A stretch of 40,763 bases of DNA. Origin: a candidate division WS1 bacterium (GTDB lineage: Bacteria > Armatimonadota > Zipacnadia > Zipacnadales > UBA5352). The stretch's first letter is position 1; each line of letters begins with the position of its first letter. Below, one piece after another: positions 34,672-40,763 of this stretch. A model generated the notes under the pieces. It saw only the letters and a list, made by a program, of their open reading frames with translations. It ran no database searches and was not told the DNA's origin. Where the stretch lies: positions 1-40,763 of the forward strand of contig JAAYJW010000373.1 of the NCBI GenBank assembly GCA_012522765.1, in the 5' to 3' direction. A program made the position numbers and the translations under genes.

Positions 34672-35559
34672 CTATCGCGGCGGCTGCTGCTGAGAAGCCT
34701 GACCGCCTCTGCTCCTGCCGACGCGCCGGAAGAAGGACGCGCCGACCAGTGTGATGAGGTAAAGTGCGCCGGTGAGCAGGATGATCGTGGCGCCGGCGGG
34801 GAGGTTCGCGCTGTAACTGACGCCGAGGCCGACGGTGGTCAGCAGCGCGATGATGATGGCCGCCAACACCATCGTCTGGGCGATTGACCGCGATAGCCGG
34901 CCTGCGATCGCGATCGGCAGCGTCAATAGCGCAATGACCATCACCAGCCCGACGACCGTCACCAGCAACACAACCGTCAGCGCGACCATGCACAGCAGCA
35001 GCAGGTAGAAGGCCTCGACATTGATCCCGCGCATGCGCGCGAATTCCTCGTCGAACGAGATGGCGAGGAGTTGCTGATAGAAGATGATCCCGAGGGCGAC
35101 GACCACGAGGTCGAGCGCCGCAATGAGCCACAGGCTCCCGGGCGTGACCATCAGGATGTTGCCGAAGAGGTAGCTCATGAGGTCCTCGGCGTAGCCGGGT
35201 GTGCGCGCGATGAAGAGCACGCCGACGGCCATGCCGATCGCCCAGATCGCGCTGATGGCTGTATCCTCGCTCTCCCGCCACCTGAGGCTGACGAAGCCGA
35301 TCACCAGCGCGGCAAGCAGCGCCGCCACGACGGCGCCGTAGAGCGGATGAAGCCACTCCCACTCCATCACCGTCTGCAGGTAGCGCGCCGCGCCGAGCCC
35401 ACCGAGCACGCTATGAGCGATACCGCCCGCGATGTAGGTAATCCGCCGGGCCGACACCCAACTGCCGACAACGCCGCATGCGACGCTGGCGAGCAGCCCG
35501 GCAGCGAGCGCGTACTGCAGGAACGCGTGCTCCCCCACAGCCCTCAAAAAGTCACTCAC
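34672..35559 (-). CDS. Metal ABC transporter permease (ZnuB/TroC-like)
   Basis: This is the membrane part of a family-9 (zinc/manganese-type) ABC importer: about eight hydrophobic helices, with the family phrases YITYIAGGIAHSVLGGLGAARYL-like near residues 40-60, SDTAISAIWAIGMAVGVLFI-like region, and VVGLVMVIALLTLPIAIAGRLSRS toward the end. I choose GTG 35559, with GGAGG five bases upstream; it overlaps the ATPase stop by eight bases and gives 295 residues. ATG 35586 and 35577 upstream lack a good ribosome site. It is the last gene of the PAC2-binding protein-ATPase-permease operon. Metal identity is not shown by sequence alone. Confidence 0.9.
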   Translation of the reverse strand: MSDFLRAVGEHAFLQYALAAGLLASVACGVVGSWVSARRITYIAGGIAHSVLGGLGAARYLQTVMEWEWLHPLYGAVVAALLAALVIGFVSLRWRESEDTAISAIWAIGMAVGVLFIARTPGYAEDLMSYLFGNILMVTPGSLWLIAALDLVVVALGIIFYQQLLAISFDEEFARMRGINVEAFYLLLLCMVALTVVLLVTVVGLVMVIALLTLPIAIAGRLSRSIAQTMVLAAIIIALLTTVGLGVSYSANLPAGATIILLTGALYLITLVGASFFRRVGRSRGGQASQQQPPR

Positions 35560-36325
35560 AGCAGCCTCCACCACCATTTCGGTCATGTCGCACCAGCCGC
35601 AACTCCCGCCCGTAGAGCTCCTCCAGAAGCTCTCCGCTGATCTGCCCCATCTCCGACGTGGGGTGCCGCCGCACCCGCCTATTCACGCACAGCACACTCT
35701 GCACCACGCCAGACACAAAGCCAAGGTCGTGGGTGATCAGCACAACCGTCATGCGCTCATTGAGCTCGCGCAGCAGGTCGTAGATCTCACCCTCCGCCGC
35801 CGCATCGAGGCTCGCGGTGGGCTCATCGAGCATCAGTATCTCAGGATCAGTGGCCAGCGCGCGGGCGATCAGTACCCGCTGTTGCTGCCCGGCGGAAGTA
35901 TCGCCGAAGCGCCGGTCGATCAGCTCGCTGACGGACACCTGTTCAAGCGCCTCGCGTGCGCGCTCGCGCAGGTGCGCCGTCCGTGGCCCGAGGTTCCTGT
36001 CCACAGCGAGGCGCCCCATCATCACGACATCGCCCACAGTGATCGGCAGGCGGCGGTTGTAGCTGAAGCTCTGAGGCACGTAGCCGATTCGGCGAGAGAC
36101 CTCATGGGGCGGCCTCCCGAGCACCCGTACCTGTCCGCGGTCGGGGCGAAGTAGTCCGAGCATCAGCTTCAGTAGCGTGGTCTTGCCCCCGCCGTTGGGG
36201 CCGACGATCCCGGTGAAATCCCCCCGAGGTATGTACACATCAACGTCCTCAAGCACCGCCCTGCCGTCGTAAGAGAAGCTTACATCCTGCATCTCAACGG
36301 CCGGCGCCTCAATCTTCACGCTCAT
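35552..36325 (-). CDS. Metal ABC transporter ATPase (ZnuC-like)
   Basis: The 257-residue protein has Walker A GPNGGGKTT (42-50), Q-loop Q85 (YVPQSFSY), Walker B ILMLDE (163-168), D-loop SLD and H-loop H199 (LITHD). YVPQ and the overall length fit the zinc/manganese ABC group. The signature motif reads TSAGQ (143-147) rather than LSGGQ, keeping the Ser, one Gly and Gln. The start is ATG 36325, with GGAGG nine bases upstream, overlapping the end of the binding-protein gene by 17 bases. The C-terminus carries an unusual Gly/Cys tail (GGGGCCE). It would power import of the metal delivered by the lipoprotein. Confidence 0.93.
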   Translation of the reverse strand: MSVKIEAPAVEMQDVSFSYDGRAVLEDVDVYIPRGDFTGIVGPNGGGKTTLLKLMLGLLRPDRGQVRVLGRPPHEVSRRIGYVPQSFSYNRRLPITVGDVVMMGRLAVDRNLGPRTAHLRERAREALEQVSVSELIDRRFGDTSAGQQQRVLIARALATDPEILMLDEPTASLDAAAEGEIYDLLRELNERMTVVLITHDLGFVSGVVQSVLCVNRRVRRHPTSEMGQISGELLEELYGRELRLVRHDRNGGGGCCE

Positions 36326-37235
36326 CCTCTGCCGCCTCCAACGCCTCCGCCACTTCGCGCGCCATCCGGAGGTGATTGTCCAGGTAATCGCGTGCCAGCG
36401 GGTCGATCCGCACGATCTCGGCGCCAATTTCCTTCGCCACGGCCTCCGCTGAAGCTGTCGCGAACTCAGGCTGCACGAAGATGGCGCGCGCCTCAAGCCA
36501 CTTCGCGTCGTCAATTACCCGCTCCAACTCCCGTGGCGCAGGCTCGCGCCCCTCCAGCTCGATCGCAACCTGCTCCAGCCCGTATGCATCCGCGAAGTAG
36601 CCGAAGGCCGGGTGGAAGACGACCATCGCTCGGCCGCGAACCGGCGCGAGCATCTCGGCAGCCTGCCGCCGCACCGCTTCAAGCTCCTCCAGCAGCACCT
36701 CCAGTGCCGCGTTATACTGCGGCTGCCCCTCCGGGTCCAGCCGCGCAAGCTCGCGCTGGATCGTACGCGCCTGCTCTGCCGCAAGTCTCGGATCAAGCCA
36801 CGTATGCGGGTCCTCACGCCCACGGCTATGACCATGGCCACCGTGTTCGGATATCTGCCTGAGCTGTATCCCCTCGCGCAGGTCAACAATGTTCTTGCCC
36901 GGCATGGAGCTTCGAACGCGGCTGAGCAGCGCGTCCTCGAAGGGCACCCCGATGCGGAAGTACACGTCCGCGCTATCAAGCTGGGCGATCTGCGACGGGG
37001 TCGGCTCATAGGTCGCGGGCGACTGCCCCGGGCCGACCAGCACCACCACAGAGACACGCTCGCCGCCGATCCGCTCGACGAAGAACGCCTGCGGCGGGAT
37101 GCTGACGCACACGGATATTGGTGCGGCTTCTATCGCAGGCTCGTTAGTTGGCGATTGGTCTTCAGGCCTGGTGCAGCCGTAGATGAGGCAGAGCGATAGC
37201 AGGGCGAACAATACAGGCACTGACCGAAGCTTCAA
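36309..37235 (-). CDS. Metal-binding lipoprotein of the ABC importer (ZnuA/TroA-like)
   Basis: The 308-residue protein is the substrate-binding part of the importer. Its lipobox (LIYGC, Cys21) tethers it to the membrane. Family features: GPGQSPATYEPTP near 68-80, EDPHTWLDP with H144, FHPAFGYFADAYGL with H208, and IDPL with D278, plus a short His-rich loop (HGGHGH, 131-136). The first metal His, normally in SPHTYEPTP, is Ala74 here, so one of four expected ligands is missing. The start is TTG 37235, overlapping the PAC2 stop as TTGA, with a strong GAGGGGGAG six bases upstream. Zinc or manganese is likely but not proven. Confidence 0.9.
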   Translation of the reverse strand: MKLRSVPVLFALLSLCLIYGCTRPEDQSPTNEPAIEAAPISVCVSIPPQAFFVERIGGERVSVVVLVGPGQSPATYEPTPSQIAQLDSADVYFRIGVPFEDALLSRVRSSMPGKNIVDLREGIQLRQISEHGGHGHSRGREDPHTWLDPRLAAEQARTIQRELARLDPEGQPQYNAALEVLLEELEAVRRQAAEMLAPVRGRAMVVFHPAFGYFADAYGLEQVAIELEGREPAPRELERVIDDAKWLEARAIFVQPEFATASAEAVAKEIGAEIVRIDPLARDYLDNHLRMAREVAEALEAAEDERED

Positions 37236-38206
37236 TCGTTCTCCCCCTCGATGTCCACCGTATCAATCAGGCGCCGCAGCAGGTCCTCATCCGCGGCGGC
37301 CTCCTCCTCAACGTCATATGCCTCCTCAAGCTTGCGCACGAGCGCAGCGAACTCCTCACTGCTCGCGACAGCTTCTTTCAGCTTCATGTCCGCCAGTTCT
37401 ACCGAAGCATCGAGGTCCGAGAGGTCGAGGCCGATGCCCAGGATCCGATCAAGCGTAGCCACCATCCGCCTGATGCTCCGAGGGTAGGTGACGATCTCGA
37501 GGAACGGATAGTGAGGTATCTCCACCACCAGGCTGCGCAGCGCGATGCCCAACTCGACCGAATGATACGACAGCGCCGTGATCACGCTCGAGGGCCCCGC
37601 GTACGTTGTCGGCAGCAGCTCCACACCGTCAATCTCACCGAGCAGCTTCTCGTCGGCCACGGAGACCCTCACGCGCGGCTCCCTGGTGTGCGGGATCGGG
37701 CTGGCGACACTGCCGACGAAGTAGATGTCGGTGATCTCCAACTCATCGCACAGTGCGAAGATGCAGTCACACCATGCGCCCCAGCGGATATGTGGCTCCT
37801 CACCTGAGAAGAGAATCAACCCGGCCTCGGGCGCCGCCCAGAAGTAGTTCGCCGGGTAGTCGAGGCTGGTGATCAGTCCATCCTCGATCGTGACATGTGG
37901 ACGGAATGCCGCGGCGTAATCCATGGGGTTCAGCGGGTGAACGATTGTGTGCCCGTCATCGAACTGCACCGTGATGGGTGTGCCCGCCGCCGGGAAGTGG
38001 TAGATGTAGAAATCCATCGGGTCGATCTCAGCGATGTTCGTCGCTGCCAAACGTTCCCGCAGGTAGCCGAGGGTGGCGGTGGAGACCATCCCGCCGTCCA
38101 TCCAGCCGCTCAGGCCGATGACCAGCGTGGGCCGCTCCACTTCCGGCCATTCGTCAATTATCAGTTCCGTCGCGCGCTGCATGTTTGCGTCAGTGTCACG
38201 GTTCAT
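37232..38206 (-). CDS. PAC2-family protein
   Basis: PAC2 proteins share a fold with eukaryotic proteasome assembly chaperones; bacterial and archaeal members have no settled function. The 324-residue protein shows the family pattern: TLVIGLSGWMDGGMVSTATLGYL, then IYHFPAAGTP, GLILFSGEEPHIRWG, DIYFVGSVASPIPHTREPRV and ELLPTTYAGPSSV. The C-terminal third (about 255-324) is acidic and helical, EEAAADEDLL-rich. I choose ATG 38206, with GGTGAT eight bases upstream; a TTG at 38212 is in frame. It is the first gene of the operon, and its stop overlaps the metal-binding lipoprotein start, so PAC2 and the importer are translated together. Confidence 0.88.
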   Translation of the reverse strand: MNRDTDANMQRATELIIDEWPEVERPTLVIGLSGWMDGGMVSTATLGYLRERLAATNIAEIDPMDFYIYHFPAAGTPITVQFDDGHTIVHPLNPMDYAAAFRPHVTIEDGLITSLDYPANYFWAAPEAGLILFSGEEPHIRWGAWCDCIFALCDELEITDIYFVGSVASPIPHTREPRVRVSVADEKLLGEIDGVELLPTTYAGPSSVITALSYHSVELGIALRSLVVEIPHYPFLEIVTYPRSIRRMVATLDRILGIGLDLSDLDASVELADMKLKEAVASSEEFAALVRKLEEAYDVEEEAAADEDLLRRLIDTVDIEGEND

Positions 38207-38306
38207 CTTCAATCACCGATGCTTCCTTCAGCCTCCAGGCAACACTCTCCTCCTCCCGAGCGCACCCTGCCGAAACATTGGCCGCGCCGGATGAATGTAA
38301 CAGCGG

Positions 38307-38336: not shown

Positions 38337-38389
38337 TGACGAGCAGCGCCCGCGGCGCCTCCGACAACTCAGCCAGGAGGGCTCACAGC

Positions 38390-39517
38390 ATGACGGACAC
38401 GGCTATCAGGCAGGCCACCGATATCATCGCTCAGGCACGCCATGAGGCGCTGCTCGATCTCCCATCAGCAGTCCTCACGCGGATGCGGGATGAGGCGGCG
38501 ACTGGACGGGCGGCTCTCGCTGAGAGGATCGCGCGCATGGGCACCGACCTCGCAGATGCCCGCGCCGAGGGGCGCTGGGGCGACATGCGCAGGACCCGAG
38601 AACAGATACTCGGACTCCACGAGGACCTCGAGGAGGTGCAGGAGAGCCTGCGGCGTCTCGAGAACGCGCGGCAGGAGGTGCTGCTGCGCGAGCGCCTCGT
38701 GACCCGCCTCGGCAGCGTCCGTCGAGTGCGGATTCTTGAGGGCACTATCGTGGCGCTGATAGTCGCGGTGATGGCGATTCTCTGGGTGGAGAGCGCCTAC
38801 CCGCTAACCTCCGGCGAGGCCAACGCACTGGTCATCGCCGACACACTCATATGCGGCGTCTTCCTTGGCGAGTTCTTCTGGCGGATGCGCCTCGCCGATT
38901 CAAAGGCTTGGTACTGGCGGCGCTACTGGCTCGATTTCGTCGCCTCTCTGCCACTCGCGGGCGTCCTGCGACTTGGTCGCGTTGCCCGATTGGCCCGCGC
39001 CGCGCGTATCGCCCGCCTGGCACGTGCCGCACGCGTGCTGCGTGCGCTGCGAGCGCTGGCCTTCTTCTCGCGCGGCTTCGACAAGATCGCCGCGATCTTC
39101 CGCCTGCAGGTCTTCAGCCGGCCACTCGCTTTCACTGCGGGCCTGCTCCTCGTCGGCGGGCTGGTCATATCACGCGCAGAGGGCGATGCTGAGGGTGTGG
39201 GCAACTTCTGGGAGGGGCTGTGGTGGAGCTTCACGACGGTGGTTGTCGGCGGCTACGGCGACATTCACAACCCCGTCACCGGACTCGGTCAGATCATCAC
39301 GGTGCTGCTGGTGATATTCGGCATCATCCTCACCGGCGCGCTGACGGCGGGGCTGGCGAGTGTGCTTCTGGGCGATGACAATGCCGGCATCGAGCGAGCC
39401 CAGGTGGTGACGCTGGAGCGCATCGATCAGATGGACGCGCGCATGGAGCGCATCGAGCAACTACTGGCGGACAGGCAGCCGCAACCCGAGCCGCCGGCCA
39501 CGGAGGCAGGATCCTGA
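38390..39517 (+). CDS. Voltage-gated-type cation (potassium-like) channel
   Basis: The 375-residue protein is a six-helix channel subunit. Residues 1-110 are a cytoplasmic, charged coiled-coil region. S1 (115-135), S2 (145-165) and S3 (180-193) lead to an S4 with ten Arg at exact three-residue spacing (194 to 221). S5 (245-262), the pore loop (272-291) and S6 (300-327) follow, then a short coiled tail with Met/Glu/Arg repeats (335-361). The selectivity filter reads VGGYGD (286-291) instead of TVGYGD, after the usual SFTTV. ATG 38390 has AGGAGG nine bases upstream. The N-terminal extension of the frame is not protein-like. It overlaps the next gene by one base (TGATG) and is divergent from the PAC2 operon. 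Confidence 0.92.
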   Translation: MTDTAIRQATDIIAQARHEALLDLPSAVLTRMRDEAATGRAALAERIARMGTDLADARAEGRWGDMRRTREQILGLHEDLEEVQESLRRLENARQEVLLRERLVTRLGSVRRVRILEGTIVALIVAVMAILWVESAYPLTSGEANALVIADTLICGVFLGEFFWRMRLADSKAWYWRRYWLDFVASLPLAGVLRLGRVARLARAARIARLARAARVLRALRALAFFSRGFDKIAAIFRLQVFSRPLAFTAGLLLVGGLVISRAEGDAEGVGNFWEGLWWSFTTVVVGGYGDIHNPVTGLGQIITVLLVIFGIILTGALTAGLASVLLGDDNAGIERAQVVTLERIDQMDARMERIEQLLADRQPQPEPPATEAGS

Positions 39518-40763
39518 TGAAGCCGCTTCGACAACTCATGGTCGCGTTAGTCACCGCGGGGGTGGTGATCATGTCGATGCTGACTGCATACGCGCAGTTG
39601 CCTGCCGAAGCAGACGGCCCCCGGACGCTCTACAAGGTCCGCAATATCGAGATCGCGCGCGAGAACGTGGAGCGCTACGAGTGGGCCCGCAAGATCGCCG
39701 ACGGCTTCACCAGCCGTGTGTCGCTGATAATGGGCAAAGATCGGGCATGGATCGAAGATATGCTGCCGGAGTTGACGCCCGGGGTTTCATACGGGCAGGT
39801 ATGCCCCAGATGCGTCGGTGAGCAGTGTTCGATGGGTGAAAGCGGCGTTATGCGCTGGAGCGTCAGCAATCCCGATCAACTCACTTGCAAGTACTGCGGC
39901 GCGGTCTACCCGGACCCGGAGTTCCCCGAAACCGGCACCCTCACCGCTCCGAAGATGGGCCAGAGCTTCACCTACTACATTCCCGCGGCCGAGGCCGCGC
40001 ATCCGGAGGATCGCACGGGAGCGCATGCCTACCGCTGGGCAAGCTGGCCGGTGCACGTGAGCTTCAGCGGCCTGATTCGCCTCAATCGCGCGCAATGGGT
40101 AGCCGGCCAGGCGCTGCCACTGGCCAAGGCATGGGTTCTCACAGGTGACGCAGAATACGCGGAACGCTGCGCATGGGTGCTCGACGCTCTGGCACAGCGC
40201 TACCCCCGCTGGCTGTATCACACCTACTACGGCACCGTGGTGGACCTGCCGCCCGCTGAAGTGGCCGCCGAGTATGGCGCCAACCCTCCCTCCGGCAAGT
40301 TCGATCCGGAGGTCCTGCGGACAGCCTTTCCTGAGCATGCGGGCTCACTGAACGCCAAGGGCTTCTGGGGCGCGGGGCGACTCCACGCCGGCGTCGGTGG
40401 CGAGGGGAGTTTCCTGCTCAATTGCACCGTTGCGTACGACCTGATCCGCGAAGCTGTGTATGAAGACGGGACGCCGGTGCTGACGGCCGAGATGCACGAG
40501 CGGATAACGCGTGATCTCATCGAGGCAGGCTGCAGCGATCTGGAGAACTACGCGCGTATAGACAACAAGTGCGGGCCCGGACGCGCCCTCAGCGCGGCGG
40601 TGGGGCAACTCTTCGAGCAGCCCCAGCGGGTGCGCAGGGGCCTTGAGGGCCTCACCACGCTGCTGGAGCAGTGCTTCCACTTCGACGGCTTCTGCATGGA
40701 GTCACCATCTTACTCCAGCATGCACCTCGGCGGGCTGTACGAGATACCCGACCTGATCGCAGG
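39517..40763 (+). CDS. Secreted heparinase II/III-like protein, 3' end cut off
   Basis: The frame starts at ATG 39517, which shares its A with the channel's TGA stop and has GGAGG upstream, and stays open to the last base (415 complete residues). Residues 1-26 are a signal peptide (ending AYA). The mature N-terminus (TLYKVRNIEIARENVERYEWARKIADG) and the later helical repeats (WVAGQALPLAKAWVLTGDAEYAERCAWVLDALAQRYP, split here by a conserved Arg/Asn run) are the opening of heparinase II/III-like alpha/alpha toroid lyases. Four Cys (C96, C99, C124, C127) form CPRC and CKYC knuckles, likely a zinc site found in this subgroup. YDLIREAVYED and DNKCGPGRALSAA continue the toroid. The beta-sandwich part lies outside the window. 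Probable target: an acidic polysaccharide. Confidence 0.82.
   Translation, partial: MKPLRQLMVALVTAGVVIMSMLTAYAQLPAEADGPRTLYKVRNIEIARENVERYEWARKIADGFTSRVSLIMGKDRAWIEDMLPELTPGVSYGQVCPRCVGEQCSMGESGVMRWSVSNPDQLTCKYCGAVYPDPEFPETGTLTAPKMGQSFTYYIPAAEAAHPEDRTGAHAYRWASWPVHVSFSGLIRLNRAQWVAGQALPLAKAWVLTGDAEYAERCAWVLDALAQRYPRWLYHTYYGTVVDLPPAEVAAEYGANPPSGKFDPEVLRTAFPEHAGSLNAKGFWGAGRLHAGVGGEGSFLLNCTVAYDLIREAVYEDGTPVLTAEMHERITRDLIEAGCSDLENYARIDNKCGPGRALSAAVGQLFEQPQRVRRGLEGLTTLLEQCFHFDGFCMESPSYSSMHLGGLYEIPDLIA

Follow-up and report, generated by a model that had tools for sequence, protein, structure and literature searches.

The window analysed here, one entire contig of 40,763 bases (JAAYJW010000373.1) from a 4.9-Mb draft genome with a completeness of 97.7%, encodes a protein, P0001, that is almost certainly a voltage-gated-like ion channel, with the selectivity filter V-G-G-Y-G-D at the place of the K+ channel motif TVGYGD and with ten arginines in its S4 voltage sensor. 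Together with 13 relatives, P0001 very probably forms a separate clade of Kv/KvAP-like bacterial channels, which is apparently undescribed as far as the literature searches show. The reading that we favour, and that we consider evenly poised between right and wrong, is that of a clade of Kv/KvAP-like voltage-gated cation channels with a non-canonical outer filter and weaker K+ selectivity. Few motifs in membrane biology are as strongly conserved as TVGYG, and a clade found in three phyla with another fixed filter pattern asks which positions K+ selectivity needs. The source organism belongs to Zipacnadia, a class of Armatimonadota that passages in PMC10290634 describe from marine sediments and as widespread in hypoxic and anoxic habitats; the main text of that paper names neither potassium nor ion channels nor voltage.

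Selectivity filter and distribution of the clade

Codons 286–291 of P0001 read GTC GGC GGC TAC GGC GAC, encoding V-G-G-Y-G-D. Between the WW of the pore helix and the Asp of the filter, the alignment with TVGYGD channels has no gap, and the step from TVGYGD to VGGYGD is therefore a true double substitution; an earlier sequence-only reading of this DNA had described it as a change of Thr and Val to Val and Gly, which was confirmed by both the codons and the alignment. The family comprises P0001 and its 13 relatives, with seven members from Armatimonadota, five from an Anaerolineae order and two from Verrucomicrobiota (window, L002–L007, L034, L084–L087, L035 and L055; L087 is cut by a contig end). 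Their filters share Gly at positions 2 and 3 and Asp at position 6 in 14/14 sequences, with Thr at position 1 in 13/14 (Val in P0001 alone), Phe at position 4 in 12/14 (Tyr in P0001 and L085), and Gly, Ala or Pro at position 5 in seven, six and one of the members, respectively, giving the consensus T-G-G-[FY]-[GAP]-D. The exact VGGYGD occurs in P0001 only. An error of base calling or assembly that turned a genuine TGGFGD into this motif is very improbable: the sequence does come from a single draft genome, and the relatives have Thr at position 1 in 13/13 and Phe at position 4 in 12/13 cases, but Thr to Val requires that two bases of the codon be altered (ACN to GTC), Phe to Tyr adds a third change, the reading frame is intact, and Tyr is also present in L085. 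The sequence-only reading had suggested other VGGYGD channels as a comparison and had allowed that close homologs with this filter might prove to be ordinary K+ channels. Relatives sharing the Gly-Gly filter were indeed found (13), whereas the exact motif did not recur (0/13), and that concern found no footing among them, as TVGYGD was likewise seen in 0/13.

The comparison set consisted of 59 non-family channels from the same searches; the filter could be read in 58, L065 being the exception. Position 2 was Val in 47, Leu in four, Ile in three, Thr in three, Met in two and Gly in none, and the contrast with the family (Gly in 14/14 as against 0/59) places the filter pattern beyond chance. The spacer between the filter Asp and the conserved Pro has three residues in all 14 family members, compared to two in 55/59 and one in 4/59 of the others. 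Four channels from the phylum of the Anaerolineae record (L036, L037, L040 and L041) read TVGYG[NQ] and have a single residue between filter and conserved Pro. The 14 family-bearing genomes yielded 30 pore-protein loci that were read (50 matches), eight of the family and 22 others, and Gly was found at position 2 in none of the 22. The genome of the window encodes one more such pore protein, with the filter TLGFGD, and in three genomes that are 86–90% complete (G002, G007 and G008) nothing but the family member matches Ion_trans_2 with an E value of 0.001 or less.

In a tree of 63 rows from which the filter columns had been left out, the 14 members were set apart by a branch that has a support of 100/99 and a length of 1.18. 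The genome searches, with an alignment of orthologues as query, covered samples of the named phyla rather than all bacteria, and the gene was found to be patchy, being present in 2/4 genomes of the genus of P0001. Relatives were found in 7/41 genomes of its order and, at E up to 1e-20, in 11/291 genomes of its phylum, seven of them with the family filter. The phylum of the Anaerolineae record gave matches in 20 of the 350 genomes drawn, including one family member, and its order in 5/56, all five being family members; for the Verrucomicrobiales record, the phylum gave 31 of the 337 genomes drawn, with two family members, and the Verrucomicrobia order 2/189, identical in two separate searches. 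A scan of a general genome collection returned 75 pattern-matching stretches with nine relatives, eight carrying the family filter and one GVGFGD (L022), and 131 such stretches in viral contigs contained no relative. Among plasmids, P0001 as query matched seven records, all partial (27–38% of the query) and known by annotation only (five as ‘potassium channel family protein’, one as ‘ion channel’ and one as hypothetical); L004 as query gave no plasmid match at E up to 1e-3.

Judged from the filter sequences, the chances that selectivity is weakened or altered in P0001 and its clade are about even. P0001 (VGGYG) does not conform to the signature TxG[YF]G, which 6/14 members retain, 7/13 relatives have Ala or Pro for its last Gly, and the NaK-type filter TVGDG is found neither in P0001 nor elsewhere in the family. 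A Pro would scarcely fit the left-handed turn that the last Gly makes in K+ filters. The Gly at position 2 alone is no proof of lost K+ selectivity, since TxGYG, a loose K+ signature according to a part of PMC9822992, permits any residue there. Stronger hints of a changed ion choice may be seen in the Thr to Val change of P0001, in the exchange of the last Gly for Ala or Pro (7/14 members) and in the family-wide insertion of one residue. The same source describes TxGYG as giving four K+ sites, of which NaK and HCN1 keep only the inner two so that Na+ passes (PMC9822992). The Thr hydroxyl of TVGYG filters helps to form ion sites, as stated in a passage of PMC8689586, and with Val at position 1 this hydroxyl is lost in P0001. 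HCN, CNG and NaK channels offer a precedent for fewer ion sites, but their filters (CIGYG, TIGE and TVGDG) differ from the xGG[FY][GAP]D of the family.

According to section 9 of a survey covering the Kv-like and CNBD channels of eukaryotes (PMC7576140), strong filter deviations are rare and, with the exception of metazoan CNG channels, confined to individual channels, which makes a deviation fixed throughout a clade notable. Literature searches for channel filters of the types GGYGD, GGFGD and TGGFG/TGGYG/TGGFA/VGGYG found no paper about such a filter, with most subscription papers outside their coverage; for single Val-to-Gly or Val-to-Ala substitutions, one paper on a K+ channel (MthK) was listed. 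In the favoured reading, the outer (S1/S2) ion sites would be loosened by three features together, namely a flexible Gly at position 2, the change of the outer Gly and the insertion behind the filter, and monovalent cations would then pass with a weaker preference for K+ over Na+ than in TVGYG channels. A loosened outer filter is favoured, on finely balanced chances, because the clade retains the Gly-Gly and the Asp but tolerates Ala or Pro in place of the outer Gly and has an additional residue just outside the filter.

Family assignment and predicted fold

Pfam profiles place P0001 in the voltage-gated ion channel superfamily, with Ion_trans at an E value of 3.1e-18 (66.3 bits, cut-off 25) and Ion_trans_2 at 3.9e-9 (36.7 bits, cut-off 22.5). 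In a library of solved structures, its top sequence match was chain 6uwm_A (E 2.2e-9), listed as a voltage-gated potassium channel, which we take to be KvAP and whose S4 sequence agrees with this; with the family profile as query, KvAP (1.7e-19) was practically level with Kv2.1 (2.1e-19). KvAP (presumably entries 2a0l, 1orq and 6uwm) shares with the family the six helices, the S4 grammar (RXX)n-R-X6-R-G and its phase shift, but has four triplet Arg and TVGYGD where the family has 7–11 register positions and TGG[FY][GAP]D or VGGYGD. Further differences from KvAP are the additional residue after the filter and an N-terminal helical hairpin in the family, and in P0001 the near lack of an S3b/S3–S4 loop (five residues, P188 to L193). 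Kv1–Kv4 channels (Kv4.2, 7f0j; Kv2.1, 8sda) match in the fold of sensor and pore with Z of ~12 and share F158, E161 and D182, but differ from P0001 in filter and S4 length, and no T1-type domain is among the Pfam matches of P0001. Three bacterial six-transmembrane channels (L056, L057 and L058), with S4 Arg chains of 7–8, share the S4 start R-x-G-R and the pore helix, whereas they have TVGYGD, a two-residue spacer and no R-X6-R-G foot.

Two single-chain AlphaFold2 models were obtained, model 1 from 43 aligned sequences with a mean predicted local distance difference test score (pLDDT) of 84.6, and model 2, covering residues 101–375, from 57 sequences with a mean pLDDT of 84.7. Their helices and the VIA structure comparisons agree with an S1–S4 sensor and an S5–P–S6 pore, S4 being of low confidence. 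In VIA, model 2 matched Kv4.2 with a Z of 12.7 and a root-mean-square deviation (rmsd) of 5.1 over 245 residues spanning sensor and pore; its pore superposed on the Listeria pore 4h37 with an rmsd of 1.6 Å and on KcsA chains with 2.1–3.3 Å, as a match of fold only. The comparison comprised the best 50 entries per model, many of them pore-only chains. The case for the fold leans on the sequence evidence, since model 1 has low TM-scores and Z values of this size do not, by the tool's own note, decide the matter for helical bundles.

Several findings count against the favoured reading. In Foldseek, Kv channels ranked first for model 1 with low query-normalised TM-scores (0.23–0.32) and an rmsd of ~10 Å or more, and the top of its VIA list was taken by NaK mutants consisting of the pore only (Z 12.6). 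Both models are at their least certain in S4, whose ends differ between them, with one helix at residues 195–224 (block pLDDT 49–62) in model 1 and a split into helices 189–199 and 204–237 (pLDDT 57–72) in model 2; given this split and the low scores, the length and tilt of S4 in the models are tentative. The family consists of only 14 sequences, 8/14 being named as metagenome-assembled genomes. Finally, P0001 retains GYG-D, so its K+ selectivity may be intact. This last point, the K+ channels KvAP and Kv2.1 as nearest solved relatives and the fit of the model pore to 4h37 and KcsA all speak for an alternative that we rate as plausible though short of even, namely an ordinary K+-selective, depolarisation-activated Kv channel in which the Gly is tolerated, Val in place of Thr leaves the preference for K+ intact and the gating charge resides in just the inner four to six Arg of S4. 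Such a channel is harder to reconcile with the clade-wide Gly and the longer spacer, both seen in 0/59 of the other channels, with the replacement of the last Gly by Ala or Pro in 7/14 members and with the absence of the filter Thr from P0001.

The S4 voltage sensor and gating

The S4 of P0001 reads RLGRVARLARAARIARLARAARVLRALR, with Arg at positions 194, 197, 200, 203, 206, 209, 212, 215, 218 and 221, in agreement with the ten Arg at every third residue first noticed in the sequence-only reading. All ten are invariant in the 7/7 Armatimonadota orthologues (P0001 included), and the run is thus beyond chance. The yardstick of four to seven S4 Arg used in that reading was too low, given that unbroken chains in the 59 other channels range from 1 to 9; ten thus lies at the upper end of this range or little beyond it. 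Chains of nine were found in 4/59, all within a clade with shortened filters. No literature on ten S4 arginines was found, and seven or more S4 charges are present in both Kv-like and CNBD channels of eukaryotes according to section 10 of PMC7576140; a long S4 is rarer, though not without precedent. The broader suggestion that both filter and sensor depart from those of standard Kv channels holds: the filter change is conserved throughout the three-phylum clade, and the run of ten Arg within the Armatimonadota members.

F158 and E161 presumably act as the charge-transfer centre, by homology to Kv channels. The first of these columns is Phe in 9/14 members, including P0001, and Leu in 5/14, and the second is Glu in eight, Asp in four and Asn in two (acidic in 12/14). 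D182 is invariant (14/14), with P188 six residues on. RXX repeats (R194–R221) and an acidic charge-transfer centre (F158, E161 and D182), as expected of a Kv-like sensor, are thus both present. KvAP, for which a part of PMC6882556 discusses this centre, has Leu in place of the Phe.

Anchor-to-anchor lengths of S4 were taken from the first Arg of R-x-G-R (His in L087) to the R-G of the foot (H-W in L086). This distance is 34 residues with ten in-register Arg in 5/7 Armatimonadota members, 37 residues with eleven in the other two (L003 and L005), 31 residues with six to nine in the five Anaerolineae-order members, and 25 residues with seven in the two from Verrucomicrobiota. All four lengths equal 1 modulo 3, so that they differ by whole RXX triplets (7, 9, 10 and 11 positions). 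L003 and L005 do not pair with each other in the tree, so the step from ten to eleven arose twice or was later lost. Regarding a tandem-repeat origin of the triplets, TRF detected only a 2.4-copy 9-bp repeat at 39037–39058, which is suggestive but not enough. This series on one backbone makes the relation between charge number and gating charge testable in natural proteins. The strict pattern (RXX)n-R-X6-R-G was found in 12/14 family members including P0001, in KvAP (with four Arg) and in 7/59 others, among which L039 fits poorly, its gap containing charged residues. The KvAP authors, in the discussion of PMC6882556, call this break in the S4 register, or phase shift, unique to KvAP, and it is now found in at least two bacterial channel groups.

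Eight of the other channels (L008, L011, L030, L031, L032, L033, L048 and L071) group together in the tree (98/94) and have a filter that is one residue shorter and lacks GYG (T[VLM]G[SNA][EQD] or SVGSN), resembling CNG or NaK filters. Four of the eight have nine S4 Arg and five the KvAP-type R-X6-R-G foot; the match of L030 runs across a TGA.

P0001 is probably a channel that is really voltage-gated. Its subunits would assemble as a tetramer, as superfamily homology suggests, and membrane voltage would move S4 and thereby open S6, and the long Arg ladder may increase the gating charge or shift its position. Activation by hyperpolarisation, as in HCN or MVP channels, appears unlikely; here the long S4 would enter the cytosol and break or slide inward upon hyperpolarisation. 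An S4 that is three to seven triplets above that of KvAP in the family is in line with this, as are the two helices, of low confidence, in the S4 region of model 2. HCN1 does have a longer S4, but a portion of PMC6904216 states that its opening upon hyperpolarisation is independent of that length. Moreover, Ser is absent from the Arg run of P0001, CNBD is not one of the five Pfam families that P0001 matches with an E value of 1 or less, and an MVP-like identity was rejected, as the profile NF040645 (methanogen hyperpolarisation-activated K+ channel) gave 18 bits, its cut-off being 300.

It is quite improbable that gating is mainly independent of voltage, whether mechanical or exerted by a ligand that acts through the N-terminal hairpin or, in the Anaerolineae-order members, through a tail resembling GAF; the Arg run would then serve folding or lipid contact. 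The N-terminal helical hairpin is conserved, and C-terminal tails weakly similar to GAF_2, below the cut-off, were found in 3/4 of the Anaerolineae-order members scanned (E 0.002, 0.035 and 0.18; none in L085); in L087 only 6/9 S4 register positions are Arg, consistent with a weaker constraint there. The RXX register held through every length change and the invariant D182 fit a working sensor instead. Members L034, L084, L085 and L086 of the Anaerolineae order have ~150 extra C-terminal residues, and the GAF_2-like tail is a possible ligand sensor on the channel.

A bolder and rather tentative proposal is that the pore of the clade works as something other than a K+ filter: TGG[FY][GAP]D and the inserted residue would widen its outer part enough to let both Na+ and K+ (or another cation) through, with sensors evolving by gain or loss of whole RXX triplets on a KvAP-type foot. 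If true, the clade would provide a natural series for gating charge versus ladder length, and a filter type found nowhere described in the literature searched.

Sequence features and genomic setting

The open reading frame of P0001, which has a good ribosome-binding site, starts with the ATG at 38390, its coding part extending to 39514 with the stop codon at 39515–39517. The N-terminal helical hairpin and the helical extension of S6 are presumably cytosolic. The Verrucomicrobiales member at L021 (1731–3179) has an insert of ~80 residues between S1 and S2.

Table 1. Positions in the window of the features of the P0001 channel gene.
Feature	Position	Strand	Basis
Shine-Dalgarno-like AGGAGGG, 8 nt 5' of the P0001 ATG	38375..38381	+	sequence
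Channel gene (P0001), 375 residues and stop	38390..39517	+	open reading frame; Pfam Ion_trans and Ion_trans_2 above cut-off
N-terminal helical hairpin, residues 26–107 (helices 26–59 and 63–107)	38465..38710	+	AlphaFold2, pLDDT 95–98
S1 helix, residues 110–136	38717..38797	+	AlphaFold2
S2 helix, residues 141–168, with putative charge-transfer-centre residues F158 and E161	38810..38893	+	AlphaFold2, alignment
S3 helix, residues 172–186, with D182	38903..38947	+	AlphaFold2, alignment
S4 arginine run R194–R221, ten Arg	38969..39052	+	sequence, alignment, models
R228-G229, anchor at the foot of S4, preceded by six uncharged residues, KvAP-like (SRG)	39071..39076	+	alignment; KvAP S4 as given in a part of PMC6882556
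S5 helix, residues 240–263	39107..39178	+	AlphaFold2
Pore helix, residues 273–286	39206..39247	+	AlphaFold2
Selectivity filter V-G-G-Y-G-D, residues 286–291	39245..39262	+	alignment
Spacer I-H-N, filter Asp to Pro295, one residue above usual	39263..39271	+	alignment
S6 continuing into helix, residues 298–362	39281..39475	+	AlphaFold2

The function of the channel is not drawn from its gene neighbourhood. The gene order of the window is not shared by L015, L017, L019, L020 or L021 in the neighbourhood comparison, and a PADLOC scan for anti-phage defence gave no matches at E up to 0.1. Upstream of P0001, a ZnuA-type gene and a PAC2-family gene lie on the minus strand at 36309–38212, divergent from it; a PAC2 gene is likewise upstream in L016, and homologues of the window open reading frames 34675–35682 and 35555–36514 are present in L014. 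The start of the downstream gene (39515–40761) shares one base with the stop codon of P0001, and the in-window part of this gene gave no Pfam match. A relative of the downstream gene (39517) lies 3' of the channel in L014 and ~2 kb off in L016, the one-base overlap being absent from both, and the full-length relative in L014 is heparinase II/III-like according to Pfam.
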